A DNA stretch of 26,366 nt from a virus. The notes beneath the pieces are model-generated. The model searched no databases, was not told the DNA's origin, and worked only from the letters and a program-made list of their open reading frames with translations. The translations under genes and the position numbers were made by a program. Positions 10,741 through 19,965 of this stretch are shown here, in pieces. The stretch is taken from the IMG/VR virus record IMGVR_UViG_3300049845_000192, positions 1-26,366 of that record; one strand, given 5' to 3'. Position 1 is the first letter of the stretch, and each line of letters begins with the position of its first letter.

Positions 10741-12321
10741 CTAGATGCCAATATCGCTGTACAGTGGCTCCTCTTCCTCGAAAGTCGACTCCTGGTACGT
10801 CACATGCGCGTATTTCCGCATCTGCCAGCCGATAACGACGGCCATAAGGAGGTCAAAGTGGCGGGTGACCATACCAATCTGTGTATCGGTGAGGTCGGCA
10901 GTAGTGAATGAACGCAGCTCCTTCAGCACATTGATGTCGTAAATCTTAATCAGCCCGTCGTTGTAGTCTTTCCGGAAGTCAAACAGCATCTGTGGCTTAC
11001 TCTTTCGAGTAGTTCTCCACCCAATCTTGTCCGTCACCTTAATCTGCCGGTTGCCCTCACGCCGCTCCGTAAACAGGTTCGGGTATCCGCGCATGGCGGC
11101 GATGGTTGCGTGTCCGGTGTTGTTCGCTTCCGGCGCCACGATGCAGTTTCCAAACTCAGCGCCGACACGCGCAAGCTCATGTCCGAAAAGGTCCGGTGGT
11201 ATGCGGTTGTTGTAATACGTGGCGGTCAGTACGCCGATGTCTGAGGGGAGACTGCCGAAATCAAAGAGCGCAAAGGTGTTGGCGTCTTTGCCGATACCCT
11301 CGCTTGTATCAGCGCCAATACCGTACCGGTGGTGGGGGAGGTACTCACCCCAGTACTTCACACCTGCGGATTCACGGTGGGGTTGTTTTACACCGTCGAT
11401 ATCGCGGTCGACACGAGCACGGTCGAAGAAGGCGCTGTCGGCGCGGGTTGGGTCGCACATGTACTCCCCATAGAAGTCATCAGCATCGTCCTTAATCTTT
11501 GCAATCTTCTCTTTGTCGTACCGCGCAGGCCACGTCGGTTCTCCATTCTCATCTTGGATGGCAATCTTGTCCACCACCATGCGCGGTTTATTCAGGAACC
11601 ACTGTATGACCCCCTCTTCCGAAATGTAGTTACCGTTCACCATGTACGCGCCGTCAGCTGCGAGTCCCTGGATGGCTTCGTCGATGCGCCAGATGGTCGA
11701 CTCGGTGGTAGTCAGGGACTGGGTGCTTTCACGGTCCTCCACGTCATCGAATACCAGGAAGTCAGGACGGTAGGCGTCTTGAATGTGTCCGCGTTGCGTC
11801 ATACCGATAGTGCCGGCAAGAAGCTTAACGCCGTCGACGGTGGTGAAACTAGCCATCGTTTCTTCGTGCTTAGAATCATCTTCCTTCTGAAAGATATTGC
11901 CGTACAACTGACGGGTCTCAACAATCATGTTGTAGATGTCCGTGACCACCTGCTTTGCGTTACCCAGGTTGCGGGTCAGTACTTTGATGTACTTGCGGTG
12001 GTGGTCTTGGTCGTTCAAAAGTACGTAGGTCAGGAAGAGTTTGGAGTACGTGGTCTTCGCACATCCGCGGAAACCTAAGTTCAAATAGTTATGGTCGCCG
12101 TAGTAGGCTCCGAGCATATTCATGATGAACTGGGTGTGGAACTCTGCGGGTTCGGATTGGTAATACCGCGGGAAGAGCCGAAACGCCCAATACTGAAACT
12201 TGAAAGCAATCATCGCCCGGGGTTCGGATTTATCGAACGCGAAAAAGGCGATGATTTCTTCGTCCGTGCCCTTGGCGATAGTTTGCTCGGCAAGGTCGAT
12301 TGCTGCTTGTGGTACTTCCAT
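10741..12321 (-). CDS. terL: Terminase large subunit (packaging ATPase-nuclease)
   Basis: A 526-residue terminase large subunit. The ATPase half has a Walker A-like LGFRGCAKTT at residues about 82-91, a middle segment LLAGTIGMTQRGHIQDAYRP, and a Walker B PDFLVFDDVEDRES near 165-180. The nuclease half has an RNase H-like first acidic strand (YGIGADTSEGIGKDANTFALF), a second acidic site (IVAPEANNTGHATIAAM) and a late Asp (HFDLLMAVVIGWQM). It pumps DNA into the procapsid through the portal and cuts the concatemer. Start choice: ATG 12321 (MEVPQAAIDL) follows TATACT by 9 bases, giving an almost leaderless mRNA; the upstream GTG at 12339 would lie inside the promoter. It is separated from the small subunit gene by the probable nuclease gene. 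Confidence 0.93.
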   Translation of the reverse strand: MEVPQAAIDLAEQTIAKGTDEEIIAFFAFDKSEPRAMIAFKFQYWAFRLFPRYYQSEPAEFHTQFIMNMLGAYYGDHNYLNLGFRGCAKTTYSKLFLTYVLLNDQDHHRKYIKVLTRNLGNAKQVVTDIYNMIVETRQLYGNIFQKEDDSKHEETMASFTTVDGVKLLAGTIGMTQRGHIQDAYRPDFLVFDDVEDRESTQSLTTTESTIWRIDEAIQGLAADGAYMVNGNYISEEGVIQWFLNKPRMVVDKIAIQDENGEPTWPARYDKEKIAKIKDDADDFYGEYMCDPTRADSAFFDRARVDRDIDGVKQPHRESAGVKYWGEYLPHHRYGIGADTSEGIGKDANTFALFDFGSLPSDIGVLTATYYNNRIPPDLFGHELARVGAEFGNCIVAPEANNTGHATIAAMRGYPNLFTERREGNRQIKVTDKIGWRTTRKSKPQMLFDFRKDYNDGLIKIYDINVLKELRSFTTADLTDTQIGMVTRHFDLLMAVVIGWQMRKYAHVTYQESTFEEEEPLYSDIGI

Positions 12322-12322
12322 C

Positions 12323-12339
12323 GTGTATTCAGTATACAC
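12323..12339 (-). promoter_or_regulatory. Terminase large subunit promoter within an inverted repeat
   Basis: Minus strand -10 TATACT at 12336-12331 ends 9 bases before the ATG at 12321, predicting a leader of about 3 nt. The -10 lies inside the inverted repeat GTGTAT-TCAGT-ATACAC (12323-12339), a candidate operator resembling the one at the primase start (GTG-rich arms around the -10). Confidence 0.5.
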
Positions 12340-12394
12340 CCGACACCCATTCAGAAAGGGGAAAATGGTGGGTTAAATTACACCATAACTGTCG

Positions 12395-12527
12395 CCTGTA
12401 ACCCGTGCTGAGTAGCACCCCCGCAAGGGAGGTGTGCTTAGCACAGCTTACAGGTTGTATGTCAAAAGCGCAAGTGGAAAAAGACCAGGATGTTAGCCGT
12501 GAAATCGACCTGATTTTTCGGTTTTTT
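12395..12527 (+). ncRNA. Structured RNA element, copy 1, with its own terminator
   Basis: The core 12395-12454 folds into three nested helices. P1 is CCTGTAA (12395-12401) with TTACAGG (12448-12454). P2 is GTGCT (12405-12409) with AGCAC (12440-12444). P3 is CACC+CCC (12416-12422) with GGG-a-GGTG (12427-12434), closed by a GCAA tetraloop. A conserved 3' box TGTCAAA-n-GC-n-CAAGT lies at 12460-12475, and an intrinsic terminator ends at 12527. A second copy at 17449 keeps every helix with compensating changes. The GNRA loop and downstream U-run favour the plus strand. No family recognised. No clear promoter; TTAAAT at about 12373 is a weak -10 candidate. Confidence 0.7.
12497..12527 (+). terminator. 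Intrinsic terminator following structured RNA copy 1
   Basis: Stem CCGTGAAATC (12497-12506) with GATTTTTCGG (12512-12521), one mismatch in 10 pairs, 5-nt loop, then TTTTTT (12522-12527). No plus-strand gene ends here, so it most simply ends the structured RNA. Confidence 0.55.
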
Positions 12528-12552: not shown

Positions 12553-12577
12553 AAAAAAGACCCCAATTTAGGGGTCT
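12553..12577 (-). terminator. Intrinsic terminator of the nuclease gene
   Basis: On the minus strand AGACCCC pairs with GGGGTCT (12577-12571 and 12564-12558), 6-nt A/T loop, followed by a run of six T (12558-12553). It lies 25 bases after the nuclease stop. Confidence 0.85.
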
Positions 12578-13213: not shown

Positions 13214-13243
13214 ACAATAGGTCGCACACAGGGTGGGTGTCAA
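13214..13243 (-). promoter_or_regulatory. Promoter of the probable nuclease gene (leaderless)
   Basis: Minus strand TTGACA (13243-13238), 18-base spacer, TATTGT (13219-13214), then 6 bases to the ATG at 13207. Predicted +1 is the A of ATG. Confidence 0.5.
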
Positions 13244-13261
13244 TGGTGGGGGTGTGGACAA

Positions 13262-13290
13262 ATTAAAGAATGTCAGTCTTGGGATGTCAG
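13262..13290 (-). promoter_or_regulatory. Second, upstream promoter candidate within the tandem repeats
   Basis: Minus strand CTGACA (13290-13285), exactly 17 bases, TTTAAT (13267-13262). The -35 is part of the first tandem repeat unit. Every repeat unit carries the same CTGACA, and the last partial one gives TTGACA, but only this one has a matching -10. Confidence 0.35.
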
Positions 13291-13331
13291 TCTTGGGATG
13301 TCAGTCTTGGGATGTCAGTCTTGGGATGTCA
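13271..13331. repeat. 14-bp tandem repeat, four full copies plus a partial fifth
   Basis: Unit TGTCAGTCTTGGGA starts at 13271, 13285, 13299 and 13313 with no mismatches, then TGTCA at 13327. The array lies upstream of the nuclease gene, between the terminase genes. A 14-bp period is more than one helical turn, so bound proteins would wind around the DNA. It may be a protein-binding array (iteron, operator or packaging site) or slipped-strand expansion. Confidence 0.9.
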
Positions 13332-13570
13332 AGGGTTGGTTTTCAAAAATTTGGTGCGCGGGTTTGGTGCCTTATGGTACCTAAATAATGTTGGTCACGT
13401 TTTCACACCCCCTCCCCCGTCTTTGAATTTCAGACAGTGACGGCCGTGAGTTTGCGCGCGATTCTGAGGGGTAGAGTCGCAAAATGTATATTGTCGACCG
13501 TCATTCATGCGCGCACAATATGGCCGTGTATAGCGCTACAATATGTCGCTTTCATAGTACTGTCACACGC
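13332..13570. other. Noncoding region between terminase small subunit and nuclease genes
   Basis: No convincing gene on either strand. It holds two ACAATATG words (13515-13555 area) in GC-alternating sequence, CGCGCG-rich stretches and a C-run (about 13408-13418). Its position beside terS makes a packaging (pac/cos) or terminase-binding site possible, but nothing in the sequence proves it. Confidence 0.3.
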
Positions 13571-14110: not shown

Positions 14111-14138
14111 CCCACGCAAGTTATCCACACCCTAGCAG

Positions 14139-14167
14139 TTGACAAGTTGACACACAGAGACTATACT
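14139..14167 (+). promoter_or_regulatory. Strong sigma70-type promoter of the right arm
   Basis: TTGACA (14139-14144), 17-base spacer, TATACT (14162-14167), the best consensus promoter in the window; a second TTGACA overlaps at 14147. It should start near 14174 and drive the small-gene cluster, consistent with host-polymerase early transcription. Confidence 0.85.
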
Positions 14168-17200: not shown

Positions 17201-17411
17201 GTGTCTCATTGAGGAGAGAAACGAAACGCGGGCAAGCTAACCCCAACGAACAACGCCCCAACTTACAGCGAAAAGGGGCGAACGCATTTTTGGAAAAACC
17301 TAAATTTTAGGAAATCGATTTTAATCGTAAAAGGATGTTGTACCCTGACGTCTCGAGCTTGCGAGGGACGGCAGAATTATAAAAACAACCGCACCCGTTG
17401 CGGTCTTTTTT
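17201..17411 (+). other. Noncoding hairpin-rich region ending in a second terminator
   Basis: No gene seen. Successive hairpins: CGCCCC/GGGGCG (about 17262-17280), CCTAAA-t-TTTAGG (about 17299-17311), CGATT-TT-AATCG (about 17316-17327), and an imperfect CGTC/GACG stem (17345-17374). The terminator at 17388 follows. With no gene between two terminators this could be an untranslated small RNA, but no good promoter was found. Confidence 0.35.
17388..17411 (+). terminator. Second intrinsic terminator in the intergenic region
   Basis: ACCGCA (17388-17393) and TGCGGT (17399-17404) around CCCGT, then C and TTTTTT (17406-17411). It lies 188 bases after the first terminator with no gene between. Confidence 0.75.
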
Positions 17412-17448
17412 ATGCCAATATCCAATACAAACTATAACATTATACCCG

Positions 17449-17530
17449 CCTGTACCCCGGTGTTTAGTAGCGCCCCCGCAAGGGAGGCGTGCTGAACACA
17501 GCGTACAGGTTAATTGTCAAATGCACAAGT
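17449..17530 (+). ncRNA. Structured RNA element, copy 2, upstream of the HTH/primase genes
   Basis: Same three-helix fold as copy 1. P1 is CCTGTAC (17449-17455) with GTACAGG (17503-17509). P2 is GTGTT (17460-17464) with AACAC (17495-17499). P3 is CGCC+CCC (17471-17477) with GGG-a-GGCG (17482-17489) and the GCAA loop. The 3' box TGTCAAA-n-GC-n-CAAGT is at 17515-17530. Linkers nAGTAG, TGCTn and AGC are conserved. TATAAC at about 17433-17438 may be its -10. No terminator follows, so the RNA could read into the gene at 17632 as a leader, unlike copy 1. Confidence 0.7.
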
Positions 17531-17631: not shown

Positions 17632-17853
17632 ATGGAAATAGAACATTACCGCGCACTGCGCGACCAAGCAGCGACCGAACGCCGGGAGAACCATTACATG
17701 ACACCAGAGAAACGCACCGAGCGGGCCCACGCCATGACCAAACTGCGCTACGAAGACAAACTCACCCTTCAGGCTATCGGCACCCGGTATGGACTCACCC
17801 GCGAACGTGTCCGCCAAATCATTGACGGCTACTTATCCACACCAAAGAACTAG
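17632..17853 (+). CDS. Sigma-region-4-like helix-turn-helix protein
   Basis: A 73-residue protein. Residues about 38-70 read KLRYEDKLTLQAIGTRYGLT then RERVRQIIDGYL, which closely follows the sigma70 region 4 helix-turn-helix (…TL-EIG-…GLTRERVRQIE). In sigma factors this segment binds the -35 box. Here it stands alone without region 2, so it may be a repressor, an anti-sigma-like competitor or a sigma adaptor. ATG 17632 was preferred to an upstream ATG at 17563, because the promoter lies between them and the extra 23 residues are not HTH-like. It precedes the primase operon and may control that operon's palindromic promoter. Confidence 0.75.
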   Translation: MEIEHYRALRDQAATERRENHYMTPEKRTERAHAMTKLRYEDKLTLQAIGTRYGLTRERVRQIIDGYLSTPKN

Positions 17854-17864
17854 ACGCCCCACAA

Positions 17865-17888
17865 TGTGTGCATGATATGATGCACACA
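17865..17888 (+). promoter_or_regulatory. Primase promoter overlapped by a 9-bp perfect inverted repeat
   Basis: Arms TGTGTGCAT (17865-17873) and ATGCACACA (17880-17888) surround GATATG. Within it, the extended -10 TGA-TATGAT (17873-17881) ends 6 bases before the primase ATG at 17888, so the operator, promoter and start codon coincide. A protein bound here would block transcription directly. On any longer RNA the hairpin would also abut the start codon. Confidence 0.7.
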
Positions 17889-18805
17889 TGCAATCGAATA
17901 TCTTAGTATGGCTTATGCGTCGCGGTATTACCGTCGACGTCATTTCCGACTTTGGTATTCACGAGGGCGACCACCCAAAACTAAAAGACGCGATTGTCAT
18001 ACCCGTAAAAGACGCAAGCGGACATGTCCTTTTTAACAAGTACCGACGCAACCCCGCTGATGACGCCAAGCCAAAGTACCTGTATGACGCCGGTTCCTCA
18101 GTCGCCTGTTTCGGCATCCACAACCTACCCGATGGACCGGTAGTCATCACCGAAGGCGAACTCGACACCCTCGTCCTTCGCTCACAGAACATCGCCTCCG
18201 TATCTTCGACCGGTGGTGCTATGTCGTGGAGGCAAGAGTGGAGTGAGCACTTCGTAGGGCGTGAGGTGTATATTTGCTACGACAATGACGACGCAGGTGC
18301 TGACGGCGCAGTAAAGACCCTCGAGTCACTCCCCCACGCCAAAGTTATCTTCATACCGGAGATGCCGGGCGTAAAAGATATATCGGACTACTGCTCGCGC
18401 GGTGGTGATTTCCGCGCACTCATGGACAGCGCACTCCAGTACCCCACTCGTGAAGCGGTGGAGGAGGATAAAAAGAAACGCGAAGCAACGTGGCTCCCCA
18501 CCCGGTTCCACAAGGCATGGCTCGATAAGCACCAGGAACAGAAGGTGCGTAGCCACACCCCGAACCCTAATCTGACCGACAAGGTAGAACGCGCGCGTGC
18601 GTACCCTATCGACCAACTCATCACCTTCCGCCAGCGCAAGGCGTGCTGTCCGTTCCACAATGAGAAGACACCTAGCCTGCAACACTACCCGAAGACCAAC
18701 AGTGCCTACTGCTTCGGTGCGTGTGGTAGACGCTACGACAGTATCGATGTATATCGGCTGAAGCATAACTGCTCTTTTAAGGAGGCGGTAAATGAAATGT
18801 CATGA
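17888..18805 (+). CDS. DNA primase with permuted domains (TOPRIM then CHC2 zinc finger)
   Basis: A 305-residue primase-like protein. Residues about 35-75 resemble the TOPRIM-flanking segment of phage primases (PKYLYDAGSS). The TOPRIM domain spans about 83-170, with the catalytic Glu in VVITEGELDTL (E89) and the metal-binding acids in YDNDDAGADG (D132, D134). After a charged linker (188-240), residues 245-303 form a CHC2-type zinc finger: CCPFHNEKTPSL (C254, H257) and YCFGACG (C275, C279). In DnaG and T7 gp4 the zinc finger comes first; here it comes last. The zinc finger recognises the priming site and TOPRIM holds the metals for RNA primer synthesis. The stop overlaps the ATPase start (ATGA). 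Leaderless start as described for its promoter. Confidence 0.85.
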   Translation: MQSNILVWLMRRGITVDVISDFGIHEGDHPKLKDAIVIPVKDASGHVLFNKYRRNPADDAKPKYLYDAGSSVACFGIHNLPDGPVVITEGELDTLVLRSQNIASVSSTGGAMSWRQEWSEHFVGREVYICYDNDDAGADGAVKTLESLPHAKVIFIPEMPGVKDISDYCSRGGDFRALMDSALQYPTREAVEEDKKKREATWLPTRFHKAWLDKHQEQKVRSHTPNPNLTDKVERARAYPIDQLITFRQRKACCPFHNEKTPSLQHYPKTNSAYCFGACGRRYDSIDVYRLKHNCSFKEAVNEMS

Positions 18806-19965
18806 CCCGCGCCGAACTCCACGCACGCATCGGAGAGATGCTCTATATTGAGGACTACGGCATGGTGGACATCATCATCGCCAGCATTGTCGCCAACAGC
18901 CTGAAGCTCGGCGACCCGGTATGGCTCACTCTTATTGGTCCATCAAGTGGTGGTAAGTCGCAAATCATTCGTCCGTTTGCACGCGCCAACCCGGACCTGA
19001 TACACCAGATAGACGACCTCACCTCGAACACCCTCATTTCCGGCACGCTTGGTGTGGAGAACTCTCTGCTCGGGCGCATTGGTGAGCACGGCATACTGTC
19101 CATGGACGACCTCACGGTCCTGTTTAGTAAGAACAGCGAGCAGCGAGCAGAAATCCTCTCGCAGTTCCGCATGCTCTATGACGGGCGTTTCTCGAAGAGT
19201 ACAGGTAACCGTAAGGACGCGCAGATATGGCAAGGGTATGTCGGCATGATTGCGGGCGCAACCCCGTCTATCTATCGGTACTTCGCTGAGGTGTCGGACA
19301 TGGGTGAACGCTTCATCAACTACCGCATGAAGCGGTACGACATACACAAGGCAGTCCAGTTTGTGACCTCACACCGGTACACCTCAGAAGAAATAACCGA
19401 ACGCCTCTCACACGCTGTGCGTGAGTATGTGGTGACACTCATTGAGGGACTGCCGAAGGATAAGAAGTTTCTGCCGGTCATCCACCCGGAGACCTACCAG
19501 ACCATACAGACCATGAGTGAATTCTCCACGCTCATGCGCACACCGGTCCACATCGATGAGCGCTCTGGTTTGGTCGACGAGTTTCCGGAGCCTGAGATGC
19601 CGTTCCGTGTGATGAAACAGCTCACCAGTATCGCGCAGGCGCTTCAGTGTATGGCGGAAGAGCCGACGCTCCCACTCCCCGCCGACCTCACCTCGGCGCT
19701 TCAGTGGTGTGCGTACAGTCTGTGTAATGATAAACGCAGGATGTGGCTGCGCGCACTCGTGACACTCCATGACGCGGACAAGCGCCTGACCGCACGCAAC
19801 GTATCGGCAGCGACCGGTATGCACACTGAGGTAGTGAAGAAGGAACTCGACCAACTTCAGGCTATTGGTATTATAGAATTGAAGGATGAGGACAGTGGCG
19901 AGAAGCAGTGGCAACTTAACAACATGGGTATCACACGCATGGTGCGTGATATAGATTCAGTATGA
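18802..19965 (+). CDS. AAA+-type replication ATPase with C-terminal winged helix
   Basis: A 387-residue P-loop ATPase. Walker A is IGPSSGGKSQI (about 45-55), Walker B GILSMDDLTVLF (97-108), a sensor-like GMIAGATPSIYR (148-159) and an Arg-finger-like MGERFINYRMKR (167-178). Residues about 320-375 form a probable winged helix (LTARNVSAATGMHTEVVKKE). It is translationally coupled to the primase and probably acts with it at the fork, as replicative helicase or helicase loader. No RecA-type DnaB motifs (H1a/H4) were recognised, so an AAA+/SF3-like class is more likely than a DnaB helicase. Confidence 0.75.
   Translation: MTRAELHARIGEMLYIEDYGMVDIIIASIVANSLKLGDPVWLTLIGPSSGGKSQIIRPFARANPDLIHQIDDLTSNTLISGTLGVENSLLGRIGEHGILSMDDLTVLFSKNSEQRAEILSQFRMLYDGRFSKSTGNRKDAQIWQGYVGMIAGATPSIYRYFAEVSDMGERFINYRMKRYDIHKAVQFVTSHRYTSEEITERLSHAVREYVVTLIEGLPKDKKFLPVIHPETYQTIQTMSEFSTLMRTPVHIDERSGLVDEFPEPEMPFRVMKQLTSIAQALQCMAEEPTLPLPADLTSALQWCAYSLCNDKRRMWLRALVTLHDADKRLTARNVSAATGMHTEVVKKELDQLQAIGIIELKDEDSGEKQWQLNNMGITRMVRDIDSV

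Follow-up and report, generated by a model that had tools for sequence, protein, structure and literature searches.

In the complementary-strand origin of M13 a hairpin, RNA polymerase and a short RNA are found together beside replication genes. The sso of rolling-circle plasmids has the same features (PMC5703833), and in the Frpo or ssi of conjugative plasmids folded DNA offers a −35 TTGACA and a −10 TATAAT to the host RNA polymerase, both boxes lying within the stem and being paired with their complements (PMC11541004; PMC7736820). Hairpins are also part of the early promoters of phage N4; they are short, have conserved bases and serve directly as the structure which the phage virion RNA polymerase reads; the stem bases are partly free as long as the pairing is kept, and negative supercoiling, in N4 by gyrase action, is the likely driver of their formation (PMC4496689). 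An N4 hairpin placed between the −35 and the −10 of the rrnB promoter extrudes in vivo in a gyrase-dependent manner and alters the activity of the promoter (Dai et al. 1997, described in PMC4496689). Finally, oriF and oriG of T4 are phage replication origins which use a promoter and its transcript and need a downstream A+T-rich unwinding element (PMC3016281).

Here we analysed a virus record of 26,366 bases (the window), which by its gene content belongs to a tailed phage. It contains two copies of an imperfect inverted repeat which the initial annotation had read as a structured RNA of the plus strand. From comparisons at the level of sequence we conclude that both copies are more likely DNA switches than structured RNAs, and we suggest with moderate confidence that each is a two-state sigma70-type promoter arranged around a DNA hairpin on the minus strand.

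The two hairpins and their neighbourhood

Tail genes are located to the left of the terminase large subunit gene, which lies on the minus strand (10741–12339, likely true start at 12321; PHROG 38 and context). The plus-strand order is small genes, an HTH gene, a primase, a P-loop helicase-like gene, an SNF2-type helicase, a PD-(D/E)XK-like nuclease and an RNA ligase. The primase (17888–18805, plus strand; Pfam and alignments) has a reversed domain order with the Toprim domain in the N-terminal half and the CHC2 zinc ribbon at the C-terminus, an order that is kept in at least 12 related phages. A primase relative with 46% identity is present on contig L285, which was binned to a Patescibacteria group bacterium and thereby hints at the hosts that these phages may have. 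The adjoining P-loop ATPase (18802–19965, plus strand), a probable helicase or helicase loader, carries the motif G-A-S-S-G-G-K-S; it has no Pfam or PHROG match and no relatives among 50,697 known phage records, and 55 related loci in metagenomic viral contigs. A tandem 14-bp repeat (ATGTCAGTCTTGGG, about five units) is found at 13270–13339. DnaA-box-like sequences (TTATCCACA or TTGTCCACA) are located at 14121–14167 and 13214–13261, there directly upstream of consensus promoters, and at 17833–17841 just before the primase. The early promoter at 14139–14167 has a doubled TTGACA and is free of a hairpin.

The two copies lie at 12395–12475 and 17449–17530, where the initial annotation had put them, and are 83% identical over 81 nt; a third copy was not found anywhere in the record. 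Copy 1 faces the terminase gene and copy 2 adjoins the primase as well as the gene of a small protein with a sigma70 region 4-like HTH (PF04545, 17563–17853, likely start 17623 or 17632). The hairpins proper comprise 60 nt in copy 1 (12395–12454, minus strand) and 61 nt in copy 2 (17449–17509, minus strand). They differ at nine aligned positions, of which six form three pairs altered on both sides (A-T to C-G, C-G to T-A and A-T to G-C) and three are unpaired, whereas not a single pair is broken. At least three double-changed pairs are expected with P = 0.003 under random placement of the differences. Thus, the compensatory changes were described correctly, and the conclusion drawn from them, that selection acts on base pairing and not on the sequence, is supported. 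Each copy forms a single long, imperfect hairpin that is interrupted by internal loops and bulges and has no branches. Each copy folds with about −39 kcal/mol with RNA parameters; with DNA parameters the values are −17.5 kcal/mol (z −4.3) for copy 1 and −15.6 kcal/mol (z −3.3) for copy 2.

Other parts of the RNA reading did not stand. The plus-strand terminator attributed to copy 1 is absent from our terminator scan, and the terminator at 12558–12577 belongs to the minus strand. Neither window hairpin is directly followed by a T run on either strand, so that neither qualifies as an intrinsic terminator. An Rfam scan, as the initial annotation had recommended, gave no match at the gathering score, and whatever permissive settings returned lay outside the hairpins and was at the level of chance. 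Both copies do carry the 3′ box TGTCAAA-n-GC-n-CAAGT; it is the reverse complement of the −35 boxes.

Conserved geometry of boxes and hairpin in related phages

An exact search of viral contigs with the loop sequence CCCCGCAAGGGAGG gave 119 unrelated chance matches, a search with the 3′ box and the stem end gave none, and blastn of both copies against known phages returned nothing meaningful. The closest terminase relatives, L203 and L205, have neither a sequence-similar element nor a clear layout. Among the small genes between terminase and primase of L203, L205 and L206 there is an arrangement TTGACA-hairpin-TACAAT with the spacer split differently and not as 5 + 12 nt, which may be a divergent form of the element.

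Relatives were reached via the neighbouring primase, whose gene served as query, and were then inspected for hairpins near the primase gene. In L122, L211 and L212 the hairpin close to the primase is flanked by TGTCAA and differs widely in its sequence, and in L216 and L224 a hairpin lies directly behind the helicase gene. The link to the unusual primase made by the initial annotation is borne out in that related phages have hairpins of this kind next to their own primase–helicase pair. Together with the two window copies these elements formed a first comparison set, picked by a hairpin with TGTCAA or by the position beside the primase–helicase genes, the −10 being left unused. In six of these seven a motif TGn-TNTA(A/G)T follows 12 or 13 nt past the hairpin, the exception being L212 without an outer −10; the gap between −35 and hairpin is 4–6 nt in this set. 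An alignment search with the helicase-like gene (18802–19965) as query extended the collection to 55 loci, among which L330, L334, L353 and L361 are the contigs of L122, L224, L216 and L211, respectively, fetched again. A scan allowing 3–8 nt before and 10–14 nt after the hairpin added L321, the closest relative (71% in the helicase), and L333, L357, L360, L363 and L365 with the same layout, and a wider scan added L331. For these later members the search demanded a −35 and rewarded a −10. As a control, a pattern scan with a 13-nt gap gave six matches, all of which lack a strong spanning hairpin. With a 12-nt gap, one subtype (arms CCT...AGG) was matched 12 times in 2.9 million viral contigs, a real hairpin being present only in the L224 contig.

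On the strand opposite to that of the RNA reading, which is the minus strand in the window, the order of the element is TTGACA, about 5 nt, a hairpin of 34–67 nt, about 12 nt and TGn-TNTAAT, and it was found in 13 distinct elements from 12 phages. TTGACA is present in 12 of the 13 (TTGACG in L211), the TGn precedes the −10 in 11, and the consensus of the −10 is TATAAT; incomplete members are L212 without the outer −10, L366 without the inner −35 and L357 with a weak −10. In copy 1 the −35 (12460–12465, minus strand) is followed by tacaa, the 60-nt hairpin, cgacagttatgg and, 12 nt past the hairpin, the extended −10 TGG-TGTAAT (12377–12382, minus strand), 55 nt ahead of the likely terminase start ATG at 12321. 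Copy 2 has its TTGACA at 17515–17520 and, likewise 12 nt past the hairpin, the extended −10 TGT-TATAGT at 17431–17436 (both minus strand); another TATAAT lies 4 nt past this hairpin. The same layout can be read in L224 (TTGACA, gctta, a 34-nt hairpin, cgctagaagtgt and TATAAT) and in L122 (TTGACA, aacag, a 67-nt hairpin, ttgctaccgtgg and TCTAAT). The hairpin sequences are unrelated across the elements, with the exception of copy 1 and copy 2, and the folds range from −9.8 to −22.8 kcal/mol with z values of −2.0 to −6.8 (DNA parameters). At the junctions an A precedes the hairpin in 11 of the 13 elements and CG follows it in 10.

The spacer between −35 and −10 is optimal for a sigma70 promoter at 16–18 nt. 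In B-form DNA the outer boxes are 51–84 nt apart and miss this range, whereas the unpaired spacer with the hairpin left out sums to 16–18 nt (17 nt in nine of the 13 elements). The two gap lengths tend to compensate each other where they vary, being 8 + 8 in L331 and 6 + 11 in L365. Because the unpaired spacer has this length, the outer −35 and −10 reach register only upon extrusion of the hairpin. Strict combinations of TTGACA, hairpin and near-consensus −10 occur 19 times in 0.84 Mb of the family loci as against one or two times in shuffled family DNA and five times in 3.49 Mb of other phage DNA, there with spacer sums of 8, 9, 27, 40 and 71 nt and none near 17 nt.

A feature that played no part in finding the elements is a second −35, TTGAC[AT], which a spacing of exactly 17 nt separates from a TAnnnT at the hairpin base. 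It is present in 10 of the 13 elements, 7–14 nt upstream of the first −35, for example as TTGACT-17-TATAAT in L333 and as TTGACA-17-TATACT in L353. As its −10 sits in the 5′ arm of the hairpin or across its base, extrusion would abolish this second promoter. It is absent from L321 and degenerate in the window, where copy 1 has TTGCGC (12468–12473) 17 nt from TAAGCT (12445–12450) and copy 2 has TTGTGC (17523–17528) 17 nt from TACGCT (17500–17505), all on the minus strand and both −10-like hexamers within the 5′ arm. In the short-hairpin members L333 and L334 an RNA from this promoter would begin near the loop and could not contain the hairpin. At three further sites (L337 6844, L346 9253 and L368 7037) TTGACT-17-TATAAT or TAAGCT is found at a hairpin base, with the outer promoter unclear or absent.

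Most elements flank the replication genes, that is the primase–helicase pair, in either orientation. Copy 2 and the elements of L361 and L330 are upstream of the primase, those of L331, L333, L334, L353, L357, L360 and L363 just behind the helicase, and copy 1 and the elements of L321 and L365 towards the terminase, with copy 1 pointing into the terminase gene. An intrinsic terminator is located at most 50 nt from the −10 in eight of the 13 elements, as compared to 26 of 600 random positions (4%), and therefore the product would be about 17–48 nt long in these eight. In copy 2 the terminator (17387–17405, minus strand) lies about 26 nt beyond the −10 and the RNA would be about 40 nt long. The usual product may thus be a very short RNA or primer. 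DnaA-box-like sequences are found within 300 nt seven times against about 1.8 expected, a roughly fourfold enrichment on small numbers. Terminators, replication genes and DnaA-box-like sites together favour a replication-linked role, as far as context can tell.

A possible two-state promoter and its alternatives

We suggest the following working model. In ordinary B-form DNA only the second promoter would be usable. Negative supercoiling, a passing polymerase or single-stranded DNA during replication would extrude the inverted repeat, upon which the second promoter would be lost and the outer −35 and −10 would come into register as a near-consensus promoter, presumably for the host polymerase. 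Copy 2 and most relatives would then yield a very short terminated RNA beside replication genes, most likely tied to the start of replication, and copy 1 would drive the terminase operon. The wider proposal, namely a natural promoter with two mutually exclusive DNA-shape states whose geometry and not sequence is conserved in uncultured phages and which times replication or late genes, we put forward more tentatively and with some doubt.

Several points speak against a promoter bridged by the hairpin. Imperfect, GC-rich hairpins such as these might be extruded only slowly from B-form DNA. In a four-way junction the two flanks are unable to stack on one another, and the polymerase would therefore have to tolerate a kinked spacer or the presence of one hairpin only. 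The extended −10 could function alone without a −35. No ordinary gene promoter is expected to have a terminator 20–45 nt downstream, and such a terminator is missing from copy 1. In addition, the second promoter is decayed or absent in the window copies and in L321.

Among the alternatives, the very short terminated product, the vicinity of DnaA-box-like sequences and the usual position beside the primase–helicase operon with no fixed gene orientation would also fit a folded single-strand DNA origin or priming site used by RNA polymerase or the phage primase, which the initial annotation had offered as its third option. Known sso (PMC5703833) and Frpo (PMC7736820) sites prime in such a way. 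However, folding of the single strand does not pair the −35 and −10 boxes dependably (mean probabilities of 0.05–0.73 as compared to 0.69–1.0 for the hairpin base), whereas Frpo keeps both boxes duplex, and a primase site has no need of a 17-nt register. Moreover, neither an initiator protein nor a GC-skew signal could be established, the skew being dominated by gene direction in this record. As a rival to the two-state promoter we regard such a site as unlikely; as the purpose which the element serves, an origin or priming site may still apply. A small regulatory RNA gene of about 75–120 nt, reaching from the B-form promoter to the terminator with the hairpin only as a modulator, could draw on the upstream promoter (intact in 10 of the 13 elements) and the terminator (in eight); with an RNA whose sequence is not kept between phages, a decayed promoter in the window copies and no explanation for the fixed distance of the outer −10, we consider such a gene highly improbable.

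Extended −10 promoters need no −35, and the elements might be ordinary promoters of this type beside a double-stranded operator, with the repeat as protein site and TTGACA as regulator box. The doubled TTGACA also found at the hairpin-free early promoter agrees with this, and the 96-aa HTH protein encoded beside copy 2, with its sigma70 region 4-like domain, could bind the doubled boxes. A clear homologue of this protein was seen only in L321, though, and the repeat sequence is unrelated between phages, the copies within one genome differ by compensatory changes which are not favoured in an operator, and the 5 + 12 geometry is left unexplained, so we consider an operator rather improbable. The structured plus-strand RNA of the initial annotation, either trans-acting or a regulatory leader, could account for the compensatory changes in the stem and for the location of copy 2 upstream of the HTH and primase genes. 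It appears very improbable, as there is no common plus-strand promoter, no Rfam match and no terminator where one had been claimed for copy 1, as the orientation to the neighbouring genes is not fixed across the relatives, and as the conserved flanks and shared motifs (TTGACA, TGnTATAAT and TTGACT-17-TAnnnT) are promoter elements of the minus strand. We also looked at a primase site (TGTCAA contains GTC) and at an integron-like or operator palindrome, which are disfavoured by the boxes on the other strand and by the missing sequence conservation.

If the two-state promoter is real, it would be a natural case of a promoter for a cellular-type RNA polymerase that exists only in non-B DNA, overlapping with a promoter that exists only as long as the DNA keeps its B shape, and it would provide phages with a simple sensor for supercoiling or replication. 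It would further mean that regulatory DNA can be kept as geometry while its sequence turns over fully and is missed by ordinary motif and RNA-family searches. No description of a natural hairpin-bridged promoter was found in the literature searched, which covered few subscription papers and is weak support for novelty.

Comparison with known hairpin promoters and origins

The proposed promoter has in common with the T4 origins that a phage promoter and its transcript would serve replication; T4 requires the A+T-rich unwinding element downstream, whereas here a terminator usually follows. With the sso and the M13 origin it shares the hairpin, the presumed use of RNA polymerase and, close to replication genes, a predicted short RNA. 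The conserved boxes of our elements sit outside the stem, unlike in these origins, and no rolling-circle initiator was recognised among the proteins scanned, which comprised only part of the small genes. Folded DNA with a TTGACA and a TATAAT for the host polymerase also recalls Frpo, but there both boxes are within the stem and paired, and the elements described here place them outside the hairpin.

The likeness to the N4 early promoters lies in the DNA hairpin within a phage promoter, in stem bases that are partly free if the pairing is kept and in negative supercoiling as the likely driver. The elements cannot be classed as N4-type, as the hairpins are long (34–67 nt), have no shared sequence and lie between the boxes of a host-type sigma70 promoter; no vRNAP-like gene was recognised among the proteins scanned from this possibly incomplete record. 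The engineered rrnB promoter with the N4 hairpin appears similar in that extrusion of a hairpin in the spacer changes the activity in vivo. In that construct the extruded state is off, whereas the geometry of the phage elements predicts that extrusion turns the promoter on.
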